DNA of 64,000 bases. Origin: an uncultured Pelagibacteraceae bacterium (GTDB lineage Bacteria > Pseudomonadota > Alphaproteobacteria > Pelagibacterales > Pelagibacteraceae). Made by a program: the position numbers and the translations under genes. The notes below the pieces were generated by a model. That model made no database searches. It had not been told where the DNA came from and saw only the letters and a program-made list of their open reading frames with translations. Positions 43,509 through 45,508 of the stretch are shown here, one piece after another (positions within the stretch are counted from its first letter, which is position 1; the number at the start of each line of letters is the position of its first letter). Location: contig CACMYF010000001.1 of NCBI GenBank assembly GCA_902617805.1, positions 1 through 64,000 on the forward strand, read 5' to 3'.

Positions 43509-43967
43509 TTAGTTTCTAGCTATATTTTTACTGTTTAATTTATCTAACTCTATTACAATCGGATTTTGTGCTGAATGCGGGTGTTCATTTCCTGCATAAA
43601 TTTTTAATTTTGTTAGTTGTTTTCTCCCCAATACTCCACCAGGTAACATTCTTTTAACTGCCATTTTTAAAGTTTCTCCAGGTTTTTTTTCATGTAGTTT
43701 CTCAGGTGTTGTAACTTTAATTCCACCTGGATGACCAGTGTGTCTGTAATATTTTTTATCTTGAAATTTTTTTCCAGTAAATTTTGCTTGTTCAATATTT
43801 TTAACAACAACAAAGTCACCATCATCCATATGAGGTGTGTATGTAGTTTTGTTCTTGCCTCTTATGATATTGGAAACAACAGTTGCTAATCTTCCAACTA
43901 CTGCATTCTTCGCGTCTATTTCATACCAAGATGAATTTAATTGGTCTTTTTTAGTGAATTTTGTCAT
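43509..43967 (-). CDS. rplM: 50S ribosomal protein L13
   Basis: 152 residues with 'WYEIDAKNAVVGRLATVVSNIIRGKNKTTYTPHMDDGDFVVV' and 'PGETLKMAVKRMLPGGVLGRKQLTKLKIY', both diagnostic. First gene of the rplM-rpsI-argC-lipoprotein-hom unit. No Shine-Dalgarno is visible before the ATG, and the predicted promoter leaves a leader of only about four bases. Confidence 0.96.
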   Translation of the reverse strand: MTKFTKKDQLNSSWYEIDAKNAVVGRLATVVSNIIRGKNKTTYTPHMDDGDFVVVKNIEQAKFTGKKFQDKKYYRHTGHPGGIKVTTPEKLHEKKPGETLKMAVKRMLPGGVLGRKQLTKLKIYAGNEHPHSAQNPIVIELDKLNSKNIARN

Positions 43968-43977
43968 TGTGCGAGGA

Positions 43978-44005
43978 TTAATACTATTAATAATTACAAA
44001 GTCAA
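43978..44005 (-). promoter_or_regulatory. Promoter of rplM-rpsI
   Basis: Minus-strand TTGACT (44000-44005), 16-base spacer, TATTAA (43978-43983). The implied start is about four bases before the rplM ATG (43967), so the mRNA would be nearly leaderless. Confidence 0.45.
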
Positions 44006-44012
44006 TTTTATA

Positions 44013-44041
44013 TTTAGCTTGAATTATGTAGCTTATATGCT
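44013..44041 (+). promoter_or_regulatory. Possible promoter of the metY riboswitch leader
   Basis: TTTAGC (44013-44018) and TATGCT (44036-44041) with 17 bases between. The -35 is poor, but the implied start near 44048 falls just before the first aptamer. Confidence 0.3.
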
Positions 44042-44050
44042 AGAAATTAC

Positions 44051-44096
44051 TTGCCGATTTGATCCTATTGCGGGCTTATAACTGCTAAAAAGGAAA
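44051..44096 (+). ncRNA. SAM-II riboswitch
   Basis: S-adenosylmethionine-binding RNA of the SAM-II (metA) class. The conserved core GATTTGATCCTATTGC (44057-44071 region) is followed by a short P1 partner GGGC and the 3' strand ACTGCTAAAAAGGA (44081-44094), which closes the H-type pseudoknot (TCCT with AGGA). The P1 stem looks short. As the first of two aptamers it is not at the ribosome site and so may act at transcription level or through the downstream aptamer. Confidence 0.82.
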
Positions 44097-44118
44097 TTTC
44101 ATAAAATTAATAAAATCG

Positions 44119-44175
44119 GTAGGCATTTGAACTGTATTGTGCGCCTAACATAATGTTGAAGCACTAAAAAAGGAG
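44119..44175 (+). ncRNA. SAM-V riboswitch
   Basis: SAM-V is a variant of SAM-II described from marine bacteria. Seen: GGCATTTGAACTGTATTGTGC (21 bases in two blocks, 44122-44141), GCGCC closing P1, and the 3' strand GAAGCACTAAAAAAGGAG (44158-44175). TGTGC pairs with GCAC(T)A to make the pseudoknot. The AGGAG at 44171-44175, four bases before the metY ATG, is the ribosome site, so ligand binding would shut off translation. Confidence 0.85.
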
Positions 44176-44179
44176 TAAA

Positions 44180-45508
44180 ATGACTAAAAAAAGAAATAAC
44201 CCTGAAACTATAGCTATCCACGGTGGTGACTATAGAAGTGACCCAGCAACGAACGCCGTAGCTGTTCCAATTTATAGGACAACATCATACCAATTTAACA
44301 ACACAGAGCACGCTGCTAACCTTTTTGCTCTAAAAGAATTTGGTAACATCTATACTCGTATAATGAACCCAACAAATGATGTGTTGGAAAAAAGAGTAGC
44401 TGCACTTGAGGGAGGACTTGCATGTTTAACTGTTTCTTCAGGACAAACTGCCTCAACTTTTGCTGTACTAAATGTTGCTCAAGCAGGAGACAATATAGTT
44501 AGTTCAACTGACCTTTATGGTGGAACGGTATCTTTATTCACACATACACTTAGTAAGCTTGGTATAGAGATAAGATATGCAGATCCAAGTAATCCTGAAA
44601 ATTTTGAAAAGTTAATAGATGATAAAACTAGAGCTTTTTATGGTGAAACTCTACCAAATCCATATTTAAGAGTTTTTCCAATTAAGGAAGTTTCTGATAT
44701 TGGAAGGAAATATAATATACCATTAATAATAGATAACACTGCATCACCTGTGATTTGTAAACCAATAGAACATGGAGCTGCTGTGGTAATACATTCACTC
44801 ACAAAATATATAGGTGGTCATGGGACAGCTGTAGCGGGTAGTATAGTTGATAGTGGTAACTTTGATTGGACCGCAGATCCAAAGAGACAACCATTATTTA
44901 ACGAACCGGATGCAAGTTATGGTGGTGTTATTTGGGGAAAAGCTGTACCAGAATTAACCGGCGCTAATGTTCCCTTTGCTGTTAGAGCAAGAGTTTGTTT
45001 ATTGAGAGACTTAGGATCAGCTCTGGCACCAGATAATGCTTTTGCTATAATTCAAGGACTTGAAACGGTTGCTTTAAGAATGAGACAACATTGCGCTAAC
45101 GCTGAATATGTAGTTGATTTTCTTAAAAAACATAAAGAAGTTACAAAAGTTATTTATTCTACAGAACACGATAAACCTATTGCCGATAGAGCAAAAAAAT
45201 ACCTTAAAGGTGGAAATGGACCAATGATTGGTATTGAGCTTAAAGGTGGGATTGAAGCTGGTAAAAAATTTATCGAGTCTTTAAAAATGTTCTATCACGT
45301 AGCTAATATTGGTGATGCTAGAAGTTTAGCAATTCATCCAGCAAGTACAACTCATAGTCAATTAAATGAGAAAGAACTAGCTGCATCAGGTGTTACACAA
45401 AGTTATGTAAGACTTTGTATCGGTATTGAACACATCGATGATATTATTGAGGATCTTGATCAAGCATTGAATAAATCTTCAAAAGGTAATTTAAAAGCTG
45501 TAAGCTAA
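44180..45508 (+). CDS. metY: O-acetylhomoserine aminocarboxypropyltransferase (sulfhydrylase)
   Basis: PLP enzyme that makes homocysteine (or methionine from methanethiol) from O-acetylhomoserine. 442 residues of the long MetY branch: 'NPETIAIHGGDYRSDPATNAVAVPIYRTTSYQF', 'IYTRIMNPTNDVLEKRVAALEGG', PLP-Lys in 'VIHSLTKYIGGHG'. The tandem SAM riboswitch leader ties its output to S-adenosylmethionine. In sulfate-reduction-deficient SAR11 cells such an enzyme would work on reduced sulfur from DMSP or methanethiol; that is inference from the group's known physiology. Confidence 0.94.
   Translation: MTKKRNNPETIAIHGGDYRSDPATNAVAVPIYRTTSYQFNNTEHAANLFALKEFGNIYTRIMNPTNDVLEKRVAALEGGLACLTVSSGQTASTFAVLNVAQAGDNIVSSTDLYGGTVSLFTHTLSKLGIEIRYADPSNPENFEKLIDDKTRAFYGETLPNPYLRVFPIKEVSDIGRKYNIPLIIDNTASPVICKPIEHGAAVVIHSLTKYIGGHGTAVAGSIVDSGNFDWTADPKRQPLFNEPDASYGGVIWGKAVPELTGANVPFAVRARVCLLRDLGSALAPDNAFAIIQGLETVALRMRQHCANAEYVVDFLKKHKEVTKVIYSTEHDKPIADRAKKYLKGGNGPMIGIELKGGIEAGKKFIESLKMFYHVANIGDARSLAIHPASTTHSQLNEKELAASGVTQSYVRLCIGIEHIDDIIEDLDQALNKSSKGNLKAVS

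Follow-up and report, generated by a model that had tools for sequence, protein, structure and literature searches.

A conserved leader-linker helix in terminator-less SAM-II-like/SAM-V tandem leaders of SAR11 metY genes

The metY locus and its leader

The window analysed here, a stretch of 64,000 nucleotides from an uncultured Pelagibacteraceae bacterium, carries on its forward strand the methionine gene metY, which encodes O-acetylhomoserine sulfhydrylase and is preceded by a leader that holds a SAM-V riboswitch aptamer and, upstream of it, a SAM-II-like element. Few cells in the ocean are as abundant as those of SAR11 bacteria, whose methionine metY supplies from DMSP sulfur. The metY gene of the window is orthologous to metY in 80 SAR11 genomes, with 91-100% identity, and the gene order at the locus is the rplM-metY order of HTCC1062 (compared with PMC2704228). 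The features of the locus are given below in window coordinates; where leaders are compared, window coordinates 44053-44120 are abbreviated to positions 53-120.

44019..44046, + strand: predicted promoter, with columns conserved in 111 leaders
44019-44024, + strand: predicted -35 element TTGAAT, with a 16-bp spacer to the extended -10 element
44038-44046, + strand: predicted extended -10 element TGcTAGAAA
44053..44094, + strand: SAM-II-like aptamer with a 3-bp P1 (44053-44055/44073-44075) and a P2 pseudoknot, from our own covariance model R1
44053..44060, + strand: 5' strand of the leader-linker helix, GCCGAUUU, identical with the P1 5' strand plus pocket strand of the SAM-II-like aptamer, invariant in 116/116 metY leaders
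44095..44112, + strand: remaining linker, variable in sequence and length, with no terminator
44113..44120, + strand: 3' strand of the leader-linker helix, AAAUCGGU, within the linker and flush with SAM-V P1, from column conservation
44112..44178, + strand: SAM-V riboswitch aptamer (Rfam RF01826, 81.1 bits, cut-off 41)
44180..45508, + strand: metY, the regulated gene, an open reading frame of 442 aa

As judged from the predicted promoter, the metY mRNA probably starts at or near G44053, the first base of the upstream aptamer; the best -10 hexamer ends 6 nt upstream of G44053, with a spacer of 16, in 102 of 130 leaders. A simple consensus promoter scan did not list the promoter at 44019..44046, and no Pelagibacter transcription start site (TSS) map was found in the published literature. 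A start at the first base of the aptamer would explain the short P1 of the SAM-II-like element. The SAM-V aptamer, which the preliminary description had placed just downstream of its second pairing segment and which is confirmed there at 81 bits, has its P1 5' strand at A44121-C44124 and overlaps the ribosome-binding site. No terminator-like site between the aptamers was found in the window at 43960-44200, and inspection of the linker by eye gave no upstream open reading frame. In ligand-free folding, the third strand of SAM-V (AG.CAUUU, 44121-44128) paired with the metY start codon region (AAAUG.CU, 44176-44186).

Relatives were collected through a metY search, which gave 80 loci, and a search for SAM-V in 397 genomes of the order, which found it in 190; further loci were added, the later ones picked by the upstream aptamer pattern and in part from genomes already in set A. 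The distinct leaders were sorted into short tandems upstream of metY (design A, 111 leaders), long tandems with a terminator (design B, 41), short tandems upstream of mmuM (design C, 22), and SAM-V alone (design D, 8). A terminator was found in 42 long-tandem loci and in none of the short-tandem leaders. Some SAR11 metY genes have SAM-V alone with no trace of an upstream aptamer (L171, L176-L179, L181, L168, L192, L193), and several of these carry a short CGAAA..UUUCG-like hairpin directly before SAM-V. One intermediate locus (L166, genus g9) has a short-P1 SAM-II-like aptamer (GCCGATTTG...), then a terminator and then SAM-V, and lacks the linker motif UCGGY (116-120).

The preliminary description called the upstream element a SAM-II core, which was right in kind, although Rfam makes no such call in the window (11.9 bits with RF01726, whose cut-off is 44, and no listing with RF00521). 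Its pocket strands, assigned with SAM-II pocket positions taken from PMC11508383, are GAUUU, UAUUGC, and GCUAAA; among 30 distinct aptamers, GAUUU, AUUGC, and GCUAAA are invariant. P1 and P2 form an H-type pseudoknot of 10 pairs, with 98.7% of cells paired, a covariation score reached by 0/500 shuffles, and both-sided changes in P1 (G-C to A-U) as well as in P2 (U-A to A-U). Covariance model R1, which was built only from short-tandem leaders, without long-tandem sequences, gave the window aptamer 67.7 bits and recovered SAM-II units from many of the long tandems, in some cases also at whole-genome scale, along with SAM-V itself. Further SAM-II-like matches of R1 lie away from SAM-V units (G158:C1:454602-454641, G038:C9:16912-16959). 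The bhmT SAM-II of HTCC1062, identified as SAM-II in PMC11508383, is also under its Rfam cut-off (15.5 versus 36), and RF00521 and RF01726 score the SAM-II units of three long tandems (L112, L116, L132) below their cut-offs; since the HTCC1062 bhmT SAM-II fails, Rfam is insensitive to such elements and SAM-II is under-called in SAR11. The upstream element of the window is a SAM-II-like, short-P1 aptamer outside the Rfam families and a putative SAM binder.

The leader-linker helix in the window and in relatives

The perfect complementarity between CCGATTT (44054-44060) and AAATCGG (44113-44119) that drew attention to this leader is present at these coordinates, and G44053·U44120 adds an eighth pair; 11 pairs, two of them G·U, are possible in this genome (44050-44060/44113-44123) if transcription begins that far upstream. 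The pairing is absent from both aptamer models, as had been proposed. It draws on GCC, the 5' strand of P1, and on GAUUU, a pocket strand, of the SAM-II-like aptamer, so that the earlier expectation that it precludes SAM-II folding holds; the same eight bases cannot serve the helix and SAM-II P1 with its pocket strand at once, and the two structures are therefore mutually exclusive. In a single AT-rich leader a 7-bp match is ordinary, as the longest Watson-Crick complement was at least 7 in 56% of dinucleotide-shuffled 140-nt leaders (P=0.56), and the question thus rests on relatives. Ligand-free folding of the window favoured SAM-II P1 only while the transcript ended near 44078-44084; once 44120 was transcribed, the linker helix had a probability of 0.93-0.99, with P2 kept as a plain hairpin, and made the ensemble more stable by about 8.5 kcal/mol at 20 C, values that overstate the linker helix relative to SAM-II because the folding leaves out pseudoknots and ligand.

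Pairs 53-57/116-120 are formed in 111/111 distinct SAR11 short-tandem metY leaders, with pair 58-115 in 97 and pair 59-114 in 93 of them. Throughout design A the 5' strand is without variation and U116-C117-G118-G119-Y120, the 3' core, varies hardly at all, in contrast to the drifting remainder of the linker. On a 116-tip metY tree, 11/11 independent substitutions in the 3' core preserve pairing: position 120 changed nine times and holds only U or C, opposite an invariant G, position 117 changed twice, from C to U opposite G, and positions 116, 118, and 119 did not change, with 7-37 changes in each of the neighbouring linker columns 104-115. The linker upstream of UCGG underwent 35 length changes on the tree, and the distance from GCUAAA to UCGG ranges from 17 to 27 nt; the spacing from UCGGY to the AGG of SAM-V P1 is fixed in 111/111 leaders, with no base gained or lost. 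Each metY leader among the loci added through the upstream aptamer pattern again had 5/5 core pairs.

Covariation in metY leaders, which the preliminary description had put forward as a check, was not seen in its strict form: no helix pair showed a both-sided change relative to the commonest pair type, because the 5' strand is invariant, and formal covariation is weak; for the same reason, a shuffle control says nothing about the pair count. What was seen were one-sided, pair-preserving changes, together with G·U, G-C, and A-U at pair 53-120, where A-U occurs in two mmuM leaders in which SAM-II P1 is also A-U. A search for altered SAM-II P1 (patterns HCCGATTTGATCC and GYTGATTTGATCCWATTGC, 399 genomes each) gave one new A-CC mmuM leader (L209), and its other HCC matches lay outside any SAM-V leader. 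Independent variation of the two segments in relatives, which had been named as the outcome that would speak against the pairing, was not found. The conservation of the helix suggests that the first and second SAM sensors are wired together.

The strength of the duplex between the 5' strand and the last 24 nt before SAM-V, expressed as z against shuffled linkers, averaged -4.17 in metY leaders (design A), -2.72 in mmuM leaders, -0.04 in terminator tandems (design B), and about 0 in solitary SAM-V leaders (design D), in which the helix is absent (8 distinct leaders). With whole leaders folded as ensembles, the linker captured the 5' strand at 0.84 with real and 0.29 with shuffled linkers in metY leaders (every third leader, 37), and at 0.55 versus 0.18 in mmuM leaders. 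The mmuM pairing is weaker and re-registered through other linker sequences (for example, in L122, UUGC..AUUUGAU pairs with AUCAAAU..GCAA); about 40% of these leaders have no significant complementarity, and most have a mismatch or another register. For the terminator-bearing tandems a leader-linker helix was rejected as absent, and the linker contact there is the antiterminator GCUAAAGCG/CGCUUUAGC.

Proposed mechanism and alternative explanations

We consider it likely that the metY leader holds a SAM-II/SAM-V tandem that has no terminator and whose leader-linker helix is in competition with the upstream aptamer and docks on the downstream one. For its first eight bases, GCCGAUUU, the mRNA would offer two mutually exclusive partners. 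When SAM is bound during transcription, GCC would close SAM-II P1 and GAUUU would line the SAM pocket; when SAM is absent and the linker has been transcribed, GCCGAUUU would instead pair with AAAUCGGU, SAM-II would unfold, with P2 staying as a simple hairpin, and a helix of 5-8 bp would be set flush against SAM-V P1. We infer a co-transcriptional, ligand-gated choice, in which early SAM would keep SAM-II and the linker would otherwise take the strand, and the helix may alter SAM-V by stacking on P1 or through partial invasion of P1 by the upstream UU. The conservation, pair-preserving changes, shared bases, and flush geometry are observed in the leaders themselves, and dominance of the linker helix without ligand is predicted by folding. 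That the abutment is flush and has never shifted suggests that the helix docks or stacks on SAM-V P1; the 5' strand of P1 starts at the RNA terminus in the crystallised SAM-V construct, and the fixed position of the helix beside it points to docking on SAM-V.

The preliminary description had further claimed that the helix excludes the 5' side of SAM-V. A fuller version of this idea, in which the 11-bp helix (44050-44060/44113-44123) blocks the SAM-V P1 5' strand, so that an occupied SAM-II would permit SAM-V to fold and repression would become sharper, appears unlikely to us. The complement does continue as C-U-U/A-G-G in this genome, the two positions preceding G53 show a preference for U (80% and 68%), and pairs 52-121 and 51-122 are possible in 79% and 69% of leaders; however, the tree has 19 and 30 changes in those two columns, only 35% of leaders could form the third pair, and with the predicted TSS few of the extra bases, or none, would be transcribed. 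Extension into P1 is not conserved: the conserved part stops at Y44120, one base before P1 (A44121-C44124), and since the helix lies flush against SAM-V P1 and not over it, the claim that it blocks SAM-V is unsupported. We also regard it as somewhat unlikely that the helix is a P0-like scaffold that organises both aptamers regardless of SAM, with the upstream element a degenerate, non-binding "ghost" aptamer. The high stability of the helix and its exact docking against SAM-V P1 agree with such a role, as do the failure of Rfam to recognise the upstream element and the SAM-insensitivity of the bhmT tandem SAM-II in full-length RNA (PMC11508383), but all SAM-II pocket bases are conserved and both P1 and P2 show both-sided changes, which would be needless in a dead aptamer, and formation of the helix would require breaking P1.

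It is quite improbable, in our estimate, that UCGGY is kept for some other reason (a pause site of RNA polymerase, a part of SAM-V that has not been recognised as such, or a protein or sRNA site) and that its complementarity to the 5' strand is incidental. The SAM-II core fully explains the 5' strand, which leaves no double-sided covariation to prove pairing, and conservation is strongest among metY leaders. Against this, SAM-V units without this upstream aptamer are also without UCGGY, CCGA occurs only once in 109/111 leaders, position 120 alternates between the two bases that can pair with its invariant G, and mmuM leaders mostly pair the same strand through different linker sequences. Chance complementarity in an AT-rich leader fits the single window, given its P value of 0.56, but is refuted by the 111/111 conservation and the contrasts between leader groups among relatives, and we assign it only a minimal probability.

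Within the literature covered, there is no earlier description of a terminator-less, helix-coupled SAM-II/SAM-V tandem. Under sulfur limitation, metY and mmuM mRNA rise 7- and 6-fold (PMC5069961), and published work treats both as translation-only SAM-V genes; a predicted, unannotated upstream SAM sensor that is helix-coupled to SAM-V would be a testable explanation for this rise. If the coupling that we propose is true, a strand would pass between two different aptamers for the same ligand, which would then not act through separate platforms.

Comparison with known riboswitch systems

The upstream metY aptamer shares its pocket strands with the translational SAM-II riboswitch of metX (2QWY; GAUUU, UAUUGC, GCUAAAAAGG). 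Compared with metX SAM-II, P1 of the metY leader is much shorter and no start codon follows the aptamer. A bhmT-type SAM-II/SAM-V tandem of 'Pelagibacter' was reportedly described by Poiata in 2009. This tandem is also covered by Feng 2024 (PMC11508383) and a review (PMC9481103), bhmT is entered as SAM-II/SAM-V in HTCC1062 in PMC2704228, and a 2022 survey stated that the SAM-II of SAM-II/SAM-V tandems always precedes an intrinsic terminator (PMC9481103). Like the metY leader, the bhmT tandem has a SAM-II-family aptamer upstream of SAM-V at a SAR11 methionine gene, with a linker that affects SAM-II. However, the bhmT linker pairs with the SAM-II 3' strand (GCUAAAGCG/CGCUUUAGC), whereas the metY linker pairs with the 5' strand, and the bhmT tandem has a terminator after SAM-II, whereas the metY leader has none and a P1 of 3 bp; the intrinsic terminator between the aptamers that marks the published bi-mechanism tandem is absent from the window. 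In the long tandems (L112, L115, L116, L118, L121, L131-L145, L152), the terminator region contains a complement, CGCUUUAGC, of the SAM-II 3' strand GCUAAAGCG, fitting the reported inactivation of SAM-II by the linker, and one group (L170, L172-L175) has GCUAAAUAG/CUAUUU in place of GCUAAAGCG/CGCUUUAGC (GCG/CGC to UAG/CUA), a compensatory change that supports an antiterminator in long tandems.

Huang and Lilley (2018, PMC6061858) examined the metY-type SAM-V riboswitch by itself, in an RNA of 53 nt; aptamer and gene are the same as the downstream part of the present leader, and the upstream aptamer and linker helix lie outside that RNA. Surveys likewise give metY and mmuM as SAM-V only (PMC2704228, PMC5069961). 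In the tandem glycine riboswitch, whose P0 helix and kink-turn are described in PMC5666159, pairing between the 5' leader and the inter-aptamer linker couples two aptamers for the same ligand; leader-linker pairing was likewise found in 111/111 metY leaders and, more weakly, in mmuM leaders. Glycine P0, however, forms with or without ligand and aids the first aptamer, whereas the metY helix uses the P1 and pocket strand of the first aptamer and competes with it. The combination of two different SAM aptamers on one terminator-free expression platform, joined by a helix between mRNA 5' end and linker, may represent a true allosteric coupling of heterologous aptamers for the same ligand that is widespread and previously undescribed, a reading that we advance tentatively as a real possibility.
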